From Bifidobacteriaceae bacterium (GTDB lineage: Bacteria; Actinomycetota; Actinomycetes; Actinomycetales; Bifidobacteriaceae): a DNA stretch of 64,000 bases. Location: positions 186,001 to 250,000 of the forward strand of contig JALCQD010000001.1 of NCBI GenBank assembly GCA_022651005.1. The letters are read 5' to 3'. The notes under the pieces are model-generated. The model was not told the DNA's origin. It saw only the letters and a program-made list of their open reading frames with translations, and searched no databases. The translations under genes and the position numbers were made by a program. The stretch's first letter is position 1. Each line of letters opens with the position of its first letter. Positions 40,942 through 45,965 of the stretch are shown here, in pieces.

Positions 40942-41316
40942 TCAGATCTTCTGCTGCACGTCCTCGATGGTGACGACGAGCATGCGCGTCAGCCACGGGA
41001 AACTCGCCTTCTTCGCGTCGAAATCAGGGCCCTCCTCCACGAAATGCCCCGTTCCATGCACGTGGAATCCGGCGCCGGACCCTACTGTTCCCATGACCTC
41101 TTTCGACCCGAAGGTCAACGTCACGTGATTGTCGGTGGGGAAATCTCCCTCGATGCTGTGCATGCCGGCGGCCGGGATGAACAATTGATTGTCCTTCAAT
41201 GACACGTATGACATCCATGTGTTCACTACGTGTGCCGGGTGTGCGTTGACCGTGATAATAGTCACTGGCCCTTCGTGCTTAAGCACTTCCAAAAAAGTTT
41301 CATCCAGCTGGACCAT
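40942..41316 (-). CDS. FMN-binding split-barrel protein (Desulfovibrio FMN-bp-like)
   Basis: The 124-residue protein resembles the small Desulfovibrio vulgaris FMN-binding protein. Shared features are ETFLEVLKHEGPVTI, VNTWMSYVSL, PAAGMHSIEGDF, VTLTFGSKEVMG, GSGAGFHVHG and a final W-x-x-x-x-LVVTI. It probably binds FMN non-covalently as a homodimer in the cytoplasm. ATG 41314-41316 has AGGAGG at good spacing. It is the third gene of a PAS-ApbE-FMN-bp operon, 29 bases after apbE, so it is a candidate redox partner of the flavinylated PAS protein. A general pyridoxamine-phosphate-oxidase-like label would also be correct. Confidence 0.85.
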   Translation of the reverse strand: MVQLDETFLEVLKHEGPVTIITVNAHPAHVVNTWMSYVSLKDNQLFIPAAGMHSIEGDFPTDNHVTLTFGSKEVMGTVGSGAGFHVHGTGHFVEEGPDFDAKKASFPWLTRMLVVTIEDVQQKI

Positions 41317-41345: not shown

Positions 41346-42284
41346 CTATGGTTTCAGAAGAGTGATGCCATCGGACACCACTCTCCCATCGGCGTATACG
41401 AATACAGCGCCGAACACTGCGGGAGCATGCGTCCATCCATCGATAGGACCACCCGCAAAGAATAGGCGCTTGGCCTCAATTTCACCGGCGATGGAATCAC
41501 GCGTGAAAACGGTGACGCCTGCGAGGTCTGTGTCTAGAGGCCTGCCCGTCCTCGGATCGAGGAGGTGATGGTATTTATGACCGTCGATTTCAAGATAACG
41601 TTCATAGATGCCGCTCGTAACAGCGGAGCACGACGGCAGAACGGCCATACCGAGATCCGTGTGACGAGAGCGCACGGGATCCTGCACGCCGATGACCCAG
41701 CGCGCATCGTCTCGTCTCGGCGACTCCCCCACAAACAGCAGGTTTCCACCGAGGTCGACTATCCCCGCAGCCACGCCATACGCCGTCCACATGTCACGAA
41801 TGCGATCGGCAATATAGCCTTTTGCAATGCCGCCAAGGTCCAACTCCATGCCGGGCTTGGTCAGCTTGACCGCGTGAGTAGCTGCGTCGAGGTCCACAGC
41901 CTCCGGCGATATCTCACCCATGCGAGCGGCAATTTCATCGTCGTGTGGCACCCGTGCGCCTGTGAAGCCGATTTTCCACAGCTTCACAAGCGGCCCTATC
42001 AGCGCGTCATATCCGAAGTTGCCGCGGCTTGCAGCGACGGCAGCCGAGATGAGCTCATACGTCGAGGTCGACACCACAACGGAGCTCTTCCCCGCCGCAT
42101 CATTGACCGCCATGACTTCAGATACCGGCCGGTTGACGGTGAGGCGATCCTCATAGTCAGCGATGAGCGCGAAGGCAGCATTGAGCGCACGATCGTCCTG
42201 TTCACCAAAAACCGTCAGTGTGATGGTGGTTCCCAGACCGTGCCGCTGCGCGCTGCGTTTCATCGCGCTGATAGTGGATGCCAT
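41346..42284 (-). CDS. FAD:protein FMN transferase (ApbE family)
   Basis: ApbE enzymes split FAD and attach FMN through a phosphoester to the last Thr/Ser of a D-x-x-[ST]-G-A-[ST] motif. Visible signatures: DLGGIAKGYIAD (residues 149-160) for flavin binding, SGIYERY (224-230), and YHHLLDPRTGRPLDTD (238-253) near the metal site. The 312-residue protein has no signal peptide or lipobox, so it should act in the cytoplasm. The ATG lies six bases after the stop of the upstream PAS gene with no ribosome binding site of its own, implying translational coupling. That upstream gene encodes four copies of a perfect target motif, the obvious substrate. Confidence 0.93.
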   Translation of the reverse strand: MASTISAMKRSAQRHGLGTTITLTVFGEQDDRALNAAFALIADYEDRLTVNRPVSEVMAVNDAAGKSSVVVSTSTYELISAAVAASRGNFGYDALIGPLVKLWKIGFTGARVPHDDEIAARMGEISPEAVDLDAATHAVKLTKPGMELDLGGIAKGYIADRIRDMWTAYGVAAGIVDLGGNLLFVGESPRRDDARWVIGVQDPVRSRHTDLGMAVLPSCSAVTSGIYERYLEIDGHKYHHLLDPRTGRPLDTDLAGVTVFTRDSIAGEIEAKRLFFAGGPIDGWTHAPAVFGAVFVYADGRVVSDGITLLKP

Positions 42285-42290
42285 TGCGAG

Positions 42291-43241
42291 TCACATACCC
42301 GTCGCAGACGCGCCAGACGTGGCATCAGGAGTGTCTGCTTCCTCTGCCGGTGCCGGCGACTGCGATTCTACTGGTACTGTGGGCGCACTCTGTGCAGGTT
42401 CAGTTGAAGGAGTTACTGAAGGAGTTTCGGAGGCGCCACTCGTGGCATCCGGCAGGGGGCTTGTGGGAGCAGCAAACGGCGACTCAGACTGAACGGTCGG
42501 CTGTGTTTCCACAGGTGGAGCTGACGGAGCAACGGGAGCGAACGGCGACGAAGCGACAGGCGTCACGGTCGACGTTGCAGCGGACGTTTCCTGGGCCGAG
42601 GGATAGTCAGTATCCGATGCACCACTCGTAGCGTCAGGGGCAAAGGGTTCTGGCTGTTCTGCAGCCGGTGCACCGAAGTTCGTTGTTGCGTCGGCAACAG
42701 GAGCGCTGTCAGCGGGCCCTGAAGTCTGCGACGCTCCGGAGGTCGCATCGACTGTTCCGGAAGCCGAAGGAGCCGCTGGGGCAGCAGACGCATTCGGAGT
42801 GTTCTCGCTCCAAGCGCCCTTCTCATAGAATCCGAGAATGTCTTCAACGCTTCCCGTGAACTCTATGGTGCCCAGGTAGGTGCCGTCCACGTCACGCAAC
42901 GCATAGTACTGGATGAGGCAACGGTGACCGTTCATGAACAGCGGCACGCGCACGACGTCCTTCGTGCCGTCTTTGAAAGCGTTGATGATGCCCATCACAT
43001 GCGGCAAAACACGTGCGGGATGGCACTGCTGCACCGTCTCCCCCACCTGGTCTACCGAGCGCTTATGCTCACGATTCGGCTTGTTGGAAAACCACGCAAA
43101 GTGATCCGTGCGGTCAATCAAGTCGAGCTCAAACGGAATGGTTGTAAAAATCTGCTGAACTTCCGTGAGGGTCAAACGGCCTGTAGGAAAGTTGATATAT
43201 ACATCCGTATTGTCTACATACGGCTTTTGTGCTGTCGTCAT
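42291..43241 (-). CDS. PAS protein with four C-terminal flavinylation motifs
   Basis: Residues about 17-137 form a PAS-like domain of the DUF438/PAS_10 type: FPTGRLTLTEVQQIF, IPFELDLIDRTDHFAWFS, the conserved Q-x-C-H-P (QQCHPARVL) and YYALRDVDGTYLGTIEFTG. Residues 150-316 are low-complexity Ala/Pro/Ser/Thr and contain exactly four DATSGAS motifs at 165-171, 203-209, 265-271 and 306-312, the last six residues from the end at most. Each fits the ApbE target consensus, so up to four covalent FMN groups are predicted. No signal peptide or membrane segment is present. AAGGAG lies seven bases before the ATG. It heads an operon with apbE and an FMN-binding protein and is divergent from an AraC gene. 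The PAS ligand is unknown. Confidence 0.88.
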   Translation of the reverse strand: MTTAQKPYVDNTDVYINFPTGRLTLTEVQQIFTTIPFELDLIDRTDHFAWFSNKPNREHKRSVDQVGETVQQCHPARVLPHVMGIINAFKDGTKDVVRVPLFMNGHRCLIQYYALRDVDGTYLGTIEFTGSVEDILGFYEKGAWSENTPNASAAPAAPSASGTVDATSGASQTSGPADSAPVADATTNFGAPAAEQPEPFAPDATSGASDTDYPSAQETSAATSTVTPVASSPFAPVAPSAPPVETQPTVQSESPFAAPTSPLPDATSGASETPSVTPSTEPAQSAPTVPVESQSPAPAEEADTPDATSGASATGM

Positions 43242-43310: not shown

Positions 43311-44186
43311 ATGTTCCAGGCCTTCGATGCCACCGAGCAGGTGACCTTCAGTCTCGATCCCTTCCTTTCAAAAGCCGGCAACGACGCCTCTGATATTCCT
43401 TTCGGAATTCTCCAGTGCCGCACCAACTGCCACATGCGCCTCAACGACCGTGATCTCACTCTCAAAAAGGGTGACATCGCGCTCATCAGCTCTACCGTCC
43501 CCATCACGCTGTCAGTCTTGCCAACTGATCGTCAGGATCGCCCCGCGTTTGTTGATGCGCACCTCTTTCTGCTGCCCATCACCATGAACAGCGGAATGGG
43601 GCCGAATTCACTTATTGACTCGTTAGTGCAGAACAGAAACAACGCGCACATTGTGTTTCGCCGCATCAATCACGACCTCACCAACGGATATTGCGATCAA
43701 CTTGAGCGCCTGGCAACCACCACCCCGCGTGACAATCTGCTGGACTACCAACAATCAGTTCTCGCTGGTCTGCTGCTCACCGAGCTATCTCGCTCTGATC
43801 TCGATGCCATGATGATCATCGAATCCGATTTTCCCGAAAACGATCTGCGTCGCACCCCAGCTGCCCGGCAAGAGGCCCTGATCCTCAACTACATCATGGC
43901 CAACATCTCCCATGTGAGCATGACGGCCGCCGCCGCTCACTTCGGCTACGACACGAATTACTTCTCGCGCCTGGCTCGACGCCTGTTCGGAAAGACTTTC
44001 TCCGAACAGGTGCGCTTCATCCGCATGAATCAGGCGAAGAAGCTTCTCGAACTGAGCTCCCAAAGCATCAACGGCATCGCCGCCGGACTCGGATACAGGA
44101 ACGTCGCCACCTTCGACCACAACTTCAAGGCCTTCACGGGCCTCACTCCCTCGGAATACCGAGAAAGCGCAGCCCGTGAACAGTAA
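43311..44186 (+). CDS. AraC-family transcriptional regulator
   Basis: The 291-residue protein has an N-terminal sensing half with a cupin-like opening (CHMRLNDRDLTLKKGDIALIS) and a C-terminal pair of helix-turn-helix motifs: VSMTAAAAHFGYDTNYFSRLARRLFGKTFSEQVRFIRM, split here as VSMTAAAAHFGYDTNYFSRL and ARRLFGKTFSEQVRFIRM, then INGIAAGLGYRNVATFDHNF and KAFTGLTPSEYR. It is divergent from the flavin operon and convergent with pyruvate oxidase, so either could be a target. The ATG follows a -10-like TAGGGT at six bases without a ribosome binding site, suggesting a leaderless mRNA. Effector unknown. Confidence 0.92.
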   Translation: MFQAFDATEQVTFSLDPFLSKAGNDASDIPFGILQCRTNCHMRLNDRDLTLKKGDIALISSTVPITLSVLPTDRQDRPAFVDAHLFLLPITMNSGMGPNSLIDSLVQNRNNAHIVFRRINHDLTNGYCDQLERLATTTPRDNLLDYQQSVLAGLLLTELSRSDLDAMMIIESDFPENDLRRTPAARQEALILNYIMANISHVSMTAAAAHFGYDTNYFSRLARRLFGKTFSEQVRFIRMNQAKKLLELSSQSINGIAAGLGYRNVATFDHNFKAFTGLTPSEYRESAAREQ

Positions 44187-44237: not shown

Positions 44238-45965
44238 TCAGTGCTGAGCTGCCGCAGCCTGCTTGAGGAAGTAGCTGAAGGGCTTCAGCGCCTGAGCCTG
44301 GTACTTCGTCACAAACTCCTCGATCTGCTTGGGATCCTGCCAGCTTGGGTCAAGGAACATGTGCTCCGTGGTGAGCGGCATCTCGTGCGTGAGCTTGACG
44401 TCGATCACGACGGGCTTGTCAGCTGCCGTGGTCTCCGCGTCCTTGAGCGCCGCCTCGAACTCTGCCTTCGTACGCACGGTGTAGCCCTTGGCACCCATTC
44501 CGTTGGCGACGGTTGCCCAGTCGGTATCCGGAATGTCGACTCCGGAAAGCGGCTGATGGCTGTCGTCGCGCTGCTCCGCCTCGATGTAGCCCAGCGTCTC
44601 GTTCGAGAACACGACGTTGATGACGTGCAGCTTGTACTTCATCTGCGTAAGGATCTCCTCACTCAGCATGGCGTAGCCACCGTCTCCGGACAGGCTGTAC
44701 ACATCGCGATCCGGGTACGTGACCTTGGCAGCGATGGACGCCGGCACACCGTACCCCATGGTGGCGTACTTACCGGAGGTGGTCCACAACTGGTCATCGT
44801 GCAAATCGAGCAAGCGCTCGAAGTTGATGTTGACGTTGCCCACATCAACCGCGAACACGGCGCGAGGAGACGCAACCTTGTTGAGCACGTCGAAGATCGG
44901 CTCAGGACGAACCGGCATCTGCGTGGAGTCCTTGAAGGAGTTTTGCCACGCAACCCAGTTCTTCTTGTCCTCCACAGCTGCCGTATAGAAGGCGGAAGCA
45001 GTGCGGGGTTCACCCGCAGCGATGATGGCACGAAGAGCCTTCTTGGCGTCCGCGAGCATCGGAACGTCTGCGCGACGACGCTTACCGAGCTTTGAGCTCT
45101 CAACGTCGATCTGAATGATCTTTGCCCTCGGGTTGAACAGGAAGATGGAGAACGGAACGTCGTTGCCCACCCACAGAATCAGATCTGTGGAGAAGCCAAC
45201 CTCCGCACCGGGCTTCGGAGCAACGCGGCCCGCCGATCCCAAATATGCCGGGTAGCCTTCGTAGAGAATGCCCTTGGCGAGAACTGAAGATACCAACGGC
45301 ATCTTGAACTTCTCGGAGGCCTCCTTGAGCTCTGCCACAGCGTTCTTGGCACCAACGCCGAAGTAGATCATCGGGGACTTGGCCTCAGCGATGAGAGCAG
45401 CTGCCTTGCGCACGTCCTCAGGATTTGGTTCGGGAGCGATGGGCGCAACATAGGTGTTGGCGTTGGTCTGGTAGGTGTCGTTGATTTGAGCCCAGCCCAG
45501 ATCCTTCGGAACGGTGAGCACGGCGACGCCACGCTTCTCGATGGCCTGGCTGATGGCCTCGTCAGTGAGCTTCGGAATGCTCTCCGCCGTCATGGCAGTG
45601 CGATTCCACACGGACACATCGTCAAAAATGGGTTCTTCGTCCATTGCCTGGAAGAAGTCGATATTCATGCGCTTGGTGGGAACCTGAGCGACAATTGCGA
45701 GGACAGGGACACGGTCGGTCTTCGCGTCGTACAAACCGTTGAGAAGGTGCACCGCACCCGGGCCTGCAGAGCCAAAGCACACGGCGATCTTGCCGGTGAG
45801 CTTAGCGTCCGCCGAAGCCGCCAGGGCACCCGCCTCTTCGTGACGCACCTGAATGAACTTCAACTTATCCTGCTGATTATGCAGAGCATTCATCGTCGAA
45901 TCAAAAGAACCACCAGGAAAACCATAAATATGATCGACACCCCACGATTCAATGACCTTGAGCAT
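44238..45965 (-). CDS. Pyruvate oxidase (SpxB/Pox type), N-terminus interrupted by a stop
   Basis: The enzyme converts pyruvate, phosphate and oxygen to acetyl phosphate, CO2 and hydrogen peroxide with thiamine diphosphate and FAD. GVDHIYGFPGGS, QVRHEEAGALAA (activating Glu44), GKIAVCFGSAGPGAVHLLNG, and the cofactor motif GDGG (427-430) ending FSN match lactobacillar and streptococcal oxidases rather than acetolactate synthases. The best start signal is not this ATG: ATG at 45995 has AAGGAGG seven bases upstream, but codon 3 (45987-45989) is TAA. The frame then continues KISGSDA into MLKV, and these residues align with the N-terminus of SpxB, so a substitution seems to have created the stop. 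Translation may restart at 45965. Confidence 0.85.
   Translation of the reverse strand: MLKVIESWGVDHIYGFPGGSFDSTMNALHNQQDKLKFIQVRHEEAGALAASADAKLTGKIAVCFGSAGPGAVHLLNGLYDAKTDRVPVLAIVAQVPTKRMNIDFFQAMDEEPIFDDVSVWNRTAMTAESIPKLTDEAISQAIEKRGVAVLTVPKDLGWAQINDTYQTNANTYVAPIAPEPNPEDVRKAAALIAEAKSPMIYFGVGAKNAVAELKEASEKFKMPLVSSVLAKGILYEGYPAYLGSAGRVAPKPGAEVGFSTDLILWVGNDVPFSIFLFNPRAKIIQIDVESSKLGKRRRADVPMLADAKKALRAIIAAGEPRTASAFYTAAVEDKKNWVAWQNSFKDSTQMPVRPEPIFDVLNKVASPRAVFAVDVGNVNINFERLLDLHDDQLWTTSGKYATMGYGVPASIAAKVTYPDRDVYSLSGDGGYAMLSEEILTQMKYKLHVINVVFSNETLGYIEAEQRDDSHQPLSGVDIPDTDWATVANGMGAKGYTVRTKAEFEAALKDAETTAADKPVVIDVKLTHEMPLTTEHMFLDPSWQDPKQIEEFVTKYQAQALKPFSYFLKQAAAAQH

Follow-up and report, generated by a model that had tools for sequence, protein, structure and literature searches.

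Candidate multi-flavin tails on a cytoplasmic PAS protein encoded beside ApbE and related to the NADH:flavin reductase system of lactobacilli

The 64,000-nucleotide stretch of Bifidobacteriaceae DNA analysed here (the window) encodes a PAS protein with a long tail bearing four copies of one heptapeptide, directly followed by an apbE gene. This raises the question of whether the tail is a cytoplasmic carrier of covalent FMN and, if so, which redox system such flavins would serve. The original prediction proposed a flexible flavin wire or a PAS-gated flavin sensor. We thus examined the locus, its relatives and the flavin reductase genes of the same genome.

A tagged PAS protein and a soluble ApbE

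The relevant features of the window are as follows.

42291-43241 (-): PAS_10 protein with multi-tag tail, 316 aa (ORF and Pfam)
42858-43157 (-): PAS_10 domain, residues 29-128 (Pfam PF13596, E 2.1e-15)
42294-42803 (-): Ala/Pro/Ser/Thr-rich tail, residues 147-316, predicted to be disordered
42729-42749 (-): tag 1, DATSGAS, residues 165-171, predicted FMN site Ser171
42615-42635 (-): tag 2, DATSGAS, residues 203-209, predicted FMN site Ser209
42429-42449 (-): tag 3, DATSGAS, residues 265-271, predicted FMN site Ser271
42306-42326 (-): tag 4, DATSGAS, residues 306-312, predicted FMN site Ser312
41346-42284 (-): cytosolic-type ApbE (FAD:protein FMN transferase), 312 aa (PF02424, E 1.7e-65)
40942-41316 (-): small FMN-binding split-barrel (PNPOx-like) protein (PF01243, E 2.6e-5, a weak match under the curated cut-off)
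43311-44186 (+): divergent AraC-family regulator (HTH_18, E 5e-19)

The open reading frame and the Pfam match to PAS_10 bore out the predicted PAS-like N-terminus and the four exact DATSGAS copies, each of which fits the ApbE substrate motif D-x-x-[ST]-G-A-[ST], known to work as a seven-residue transplantable tag (PMC12052999). PAS_10 was the sole Pfam domain; the protein has no FMN-bind domain, and no DUF438 or hemerythrin-like domain was found ahead of PAS_10, which begins at residue 29. In the AlphaFold model, pLDDT was mostly 66-95 in the PAS core and mostly below 50 in the 170-residue tail, which had no secondary structure and on which the tags are spaced 38-62 residues apart. The closest solved folds in a structure search were 3cax (Z 13.8) and 2qkp (Z 13.6), both from the group of DUF438 and hemerythrin-PAS proteins, whereas the window protein lacks the DUF438 and hemerythrin-like domains of that group. 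As to the PAS ligand, the search returned general PAS folds only. DATSGAS had also been called the only recurring element of the tail; no other repeat was apparent, although short repeats were not systematically excluded.

The next gene, 6 bp away, is indeed an ApbE without a signal peptide, as predicted: its N-terminus contains neither a hydrophobic stretch nor a lipobox. No other apbE was found in the genome, and this one matched Listeria FmnB (7esa) with an E-value of about 9e-56 (8.8e-56), with VTSGIYERYL and YHHLLDPRTG kept. The assignment of the PAS protein and the adjoining ApbE to a cytoplasmic system is supported. The PNPOx-like gene is the third gene of the presumed PAS/apbE operon, and also follows the PAS/ApbE system in the sister genome G001, in Lacticaseibacillus absianus and on L. 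paracasei plasmids; this protein is tied to apbE across phyla, and is possibly a further flavin-binding partner. A close AraC homologue lies beside a PAS or apbE gene in G001 and in five lactobacillar loci (L025, L220, L223, L227 and L228). On the other side of the AraC gene, a pyruvate oxidase (SpxB type, TIGR02720, 860 bits) is encoded at 44238-45965 (-), another H2O2-forming, lactobacillus-like enzyme near PAS/apbE that is also present in G001.

We then asked whether the tags could have arisen by chance. In 20,000 shuffles of the 170-residue tail, the mean was 0.031 motifs and the maximum two, against four observed. The four DNA copies differ pairwise at 4-8 of 21 nucleotides while encoding the identical peptide, and their flanks are unlike, which excludes a recent DNA duplication. 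Scanning the window's own genome (G000) with relaxed motifs gave 34 matches versus 37 for the reversed pattern, and 42 versus 46 in a second scan; being at chance level, such genome-wide counts prove nothing alone. We treated as background the in-frame matches in FtsH, GyrA, a RecG-like helicase, an aminotransferase, DNA polymerase IV and surface proteins. DA[ST][ST]GA[ST] was the sole enriched motif class: of 189 Bifidobacteriaceae genomes, G000 and G001 have eight matches each and no other has more than four. Judged from sequence, the four DATSGAS motifs are very probably ApbE sites.

Relatives in lactobacilli, enterococci and Bifidobacteriaceae

The family survey covered 97 distinct PAS relatives, mostly from Lactobacillaceae, drawn from 201 Lactobacillaceae genomes and other loci, and tags matching D-x-x-[ST]-[GS]-A-[ST] were counted in the tails. 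The tails of the 97 relatives contained 279 tags, against 1.4 in shuffled tails. A relative usually has 2-5 tags (mode three, maximum seven; at least two in 86 of 97), and in 271 of the 279 the acceptor at the final position is Ser. A lack of motif conservation among relatives, which would have refuted the original prediction, was not observed, as several tags are kept in relatives from two phyla; their number and position vary. The strict tag is absent in seven relatives, six of which have degenerate D-A-x-A-S-A-S-like repeats. Such repeated units replace the tags in the FRedB:PAS tails of L177, L209, L221, L222, L230 and L231, where they perhaps reflect a shifted ApbE specificity.

A full-length ApbE was found in all 79 Lactobacillaceae genomes with a close PAS relative, versus 26 of the 122 without one (n=201; Fisher p 1.8e-33, with phylogeny ignored), and the ApbEs that adjoin PAS genes are without a lipobox. 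The same operon (AraC, a stand-alone PAS protein with 4-5 tags, and ApbE) recurs in four Lactobacillaceae genomes (L220, L223, L227 and L228). Stand-alone proteins of 246-247 aa, the size of LjPAS, have two or three tags; these LjPAS-like proteins were assigned by size and family, not by comparison with the published LjPAS sequence.

Close relatives of the window ApbE, with 54-70% identity, occur in Lacticaseibacillus, Limosilactobacillus and Lentilactobacillus, and those on L. paracasei plasmids share 60% identity. A contig search gave no match with the window PAS protein as the query, and gave matches with the ApbE. The window ApbE is nested among the lactobacillar non-lipoprotein ApbEs, separate from the lipoprotein type. 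Since the AraC/PAS-tag/ApbE operon recurs in lactobacilli and the window ApbE nests among theirs, the system was likely acquired from lactobacilli by horizontal transfer, which is the simplest reading.

Lactobacilli, Enterococcus and two Bifidobacteriaceae also have the PAS-tag unit as part of a FRedB fusion that adjoins FRedA, often together with apbE. On Enterococcus faecium plasmids, genes for ApbE, an FMN reductase and an FMN-reductase:PAS fusion are flanked by IS1216 copies; on plasmid p1 (L032), ApbE, FRedA and an FRedB:PAS with three DAV[ST]SAS tags have IS1216 on their flanks. PAS relatives occurred on 92 Enterococcus plasmid records, a number counted by PAS relative and not by full module. 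In Lentilactobacillus parafarraginis, a PAS-less FMN reductase with three tail tags is encoded directly before apbE (L029, 5223-5972, +).

The genome of the window itself also encodes flavin reductases: a FRedA-like gene (C1:510145; PF03358, E 1.3e-34) and, next to it, a FRedB-PAS-tag fusion (C1:508730-509932; FRedB match at C1:509489, PF03358, E 3.3e-29) with the tags DATSGAS and DATSSAS. The window PAS domain is 62% identical to that of this fusion (L012) and to that of a Limosilactobacillus fusion (L028). This genome, which encodes the reductase as well, thus has a second PAS-tag carrier in the stand-alone window protein. In two other Bifidobacteriaceae, the genes for ApbE, FRedA and FRedB:PAS are consecutive. 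In G001, the contig of which is the same as that of Bifidobacteriaceae MAG UW_DM_BIF4_1, the homologue of the window protein combines two PAS domains with seven tags; its PAS core is 86% and its tail 55% identical, and the tags still align.

Single tags were seen in further proteins of these genomes. An acetolactate synthase in G000 (C4:141064-141963, L283) and in G001 (C48:9608-10480, L284) has a divergent tail with DATSGAS or DATTGAS just before the C-terminus, a tag that is absent in G002, of the same genus, where the PAS protein was not found, and in the other Bifidobacteriaceae examined. In G000, a ferredoxin-NADP-reductase-like flavoprotein has one DATTGAS in an inserted loop (C3:143682-143701, L084), and FrdB has one DAVTGAS in an N-terminal extension (C2:124885-124904, L149). 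Either may be due to chance, and we do not claim these two as tags, as no matching tag was seen in the incomplete assembly of G001.

Tail flavins and the FRedA/B reductase

In work by Hertzberger from 2014, the FRedA and FRedB genes are reportedly lj0548 and lj0549. FRedA/B is a heterodimeric NADH:flavin reductase that forms H2O2, reduces FMN with a Km of about 20 uM, binds FMN with a Kd of about 2 uM and is partly empty when purified (Valladares et al., PMC4500961). In the same study LjPAS, treated as a PAS regulator, slows FRedA/B activation and affects its assembly, its expression responds to oxygen, and other species have it as a fusion with FMN reductase. Searching the text of the paper for 'covalent' gave no match, and among the papers searched we found none linking LjPAS with ApbE or flavinylation. 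In Lactococcus, ApbE acts on FMN_red proteins whose unstructured tail has one or two tags, as Huang et al. (PMC11334425) proved by mutation. Joined together, these two lines of work suggest that the PAS-tag tails may be flavinylated arms of the FRed system.

A PAS domain with short linear tags is not a one-off architecture, since LjPAS and the FMN-reductase:PAS fusions form a large family already known (PMC4500961); nor are tail tags wholly new, given the proven substrates in Lactococcus. LjPAS and these fusions share the PAS_10 family with the window protein, stand-alone or fused to FRedB, with FRedA and FRedB homologues in the same genome. The window protein differs in its tail, of about 170 residues versus about 17-134 in the surveyed relatives, and in that its gene adjoins apbE. 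The Lactococcus proteins have in common with it the FMN reductase system and ApbE tags on an unstructured C-terminal tail, but their one or two tags are on FMN_red itself, and a PAS module or tails with 3-7 tags are not described in the passages of PMC11334425 examined. Several ApbE sites on one polypeptide also occur in the multi-flavinylated FMN-bind proteins (PMC8238504, PMC10339131), where, however, the sites lie inside folded domains of generally exported proteins, whereas the window protein is cytoplasmic and its linear tags are bare. In Klebsiella, the fumarate reductase and its signal-less ApbE (described in PMC12052999) likewise form a cytoplasmic pair of substrate and enzyme, but the reductase is an FMN-carrying enzyme without a PAS domain or a multi-tag tail. 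What is new, as predicted from sequence and apparently unreported, would be a family of cytoplasmic multi-flavin carriers with linear tags, linked to an NADH:flavin reductase.

We regard it as probable that the window protein is an ApbE-flavinylated PAS protein whose tail FMNs are tethered electron acceptors for FRedA/B. In each DATSGAS, the adjoining ApbE would move FMN from FAD onto the final Ser, so that a long disordered tail holding as many as four FMN would extend from the folded PAS domain; attachment of FMN to these tags is very likely. The PAS domain would be a docking module holding the tail beside the FRedA/FRedB encoded elsewhere in the genome, and such docking is rather likely. 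The tail FMNs may then be mobile swinging arms, present at high local concentration, which accept electrons from the FMN of the reductase itself and hand them on to O2, forming H2O2, or to another acceptor, so that NADH would be reoxidised without dependence on free flavin; this tethered-acceptor role is a finely balanced proposal. Several points count against the overall reading: the window gene is not adjacent to the FRed genes in its own genome, other ApbEs preferred a Thr acceptor in tests (PMC12052999), the strict tag is missing from the seven relatives mentioned above, and LjPAS slowed FRedA/B activation apparently without added ApbE, so that the PAS domain alone may be a regulator.

Among the alternatives, the tail FMNs might instead be catalytic cofactors, a tethered FMN filling the shallow FMN site of the FRed dimer and preventing cofactor loss. 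The same was proposed for Lactococcus FMN_red, for which PMC11334425 gives both flavinylation and models with tail tags by the FMN site, and the FMN Kd and partly empty state of purified FRedA/B (PMC4500961) agree with it. We nevertheless consider it rather unlikely, as the heterodimer has two FMN sites while tails have up to seven tags, and the protein that bears the window tags is a separate one that lacks an FMN reductase domain. We give similarly limited credence to a broader reading in which cytoplasmic flavin tagging is general, with a single soluble ApbE modifying redox proteins of several unrelated kinds on their disordered tails (multi-tag PAS carriers, FRedB-PAS, FMN_red and, within this genus, also acetolactate synthase) to give swinging flavin arms that, comparably to lipoyl or biotin arms, route NADH electrons through the cytoplasm.

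A PAS-gated redox or oxygen sensor, whose tail flavins would signal redox conditions to a partner, be it the PAS domain or another, while carrying little catalytic flux, seems less likely still: the PAS fold, the divergent AraC regulator, and the oxygen-responsive expression of LjPAS and its slowing of FRedA/B assembly (PMC4500961) favour it, but an output domain is absent, most relatives are fused to a reductase, and the variable number and spacing of tags fit carriers better than a tuned switch. As for the flavin wire, with electrons hopping from one tail FMN to the next towards a distant acceptor, the multiple sites on one chain recall the multi-flavinylated extracytosolic proteins discussed as wires (PMC12052999); with the tags this far apart on a predicted disordered chain, however, fixed hopping distances are implausible, and the operon has no membrane or acceptor partner. 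The wire is accordingly improbable, and an NADH:flavin reductase served by tethered flavins is the better fit. That the tags are a low-complexity artefact, or have a function other than flavinylation, is the most improbable of all. The Ala/Pro/Ser/Thr-rich tail and the single degenerate chance matches elsewhere in the genome speak for it, but the shuffle tests, silent codon differences, cross-phylum conservation and ApbE co-occurrence argue against it, as does the richness in DA[ST][ST]GA[ST] of G000 and G001 only.

ApbE flavinylation has so far mostly been described as an extracytosolic electron-transfer device of FMN-bind domains. The family considered here is, in contrast, cytoplasmic and widespread, in Lactobacillaceae, on Enterococcus plasmids and in some Bifidobacteriaceae, with disordered tails that carry two to seven bare predicted flavin tags. 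Should these be filled, the published work on LjPAS and H2O2 formation by FRedA/B may have studied a cofactor-less regulator, since LjPAS-sized relatives carry tags too. Filled tags could also explain the soluble ApbEs without an exported substrate in many lactobacilli.
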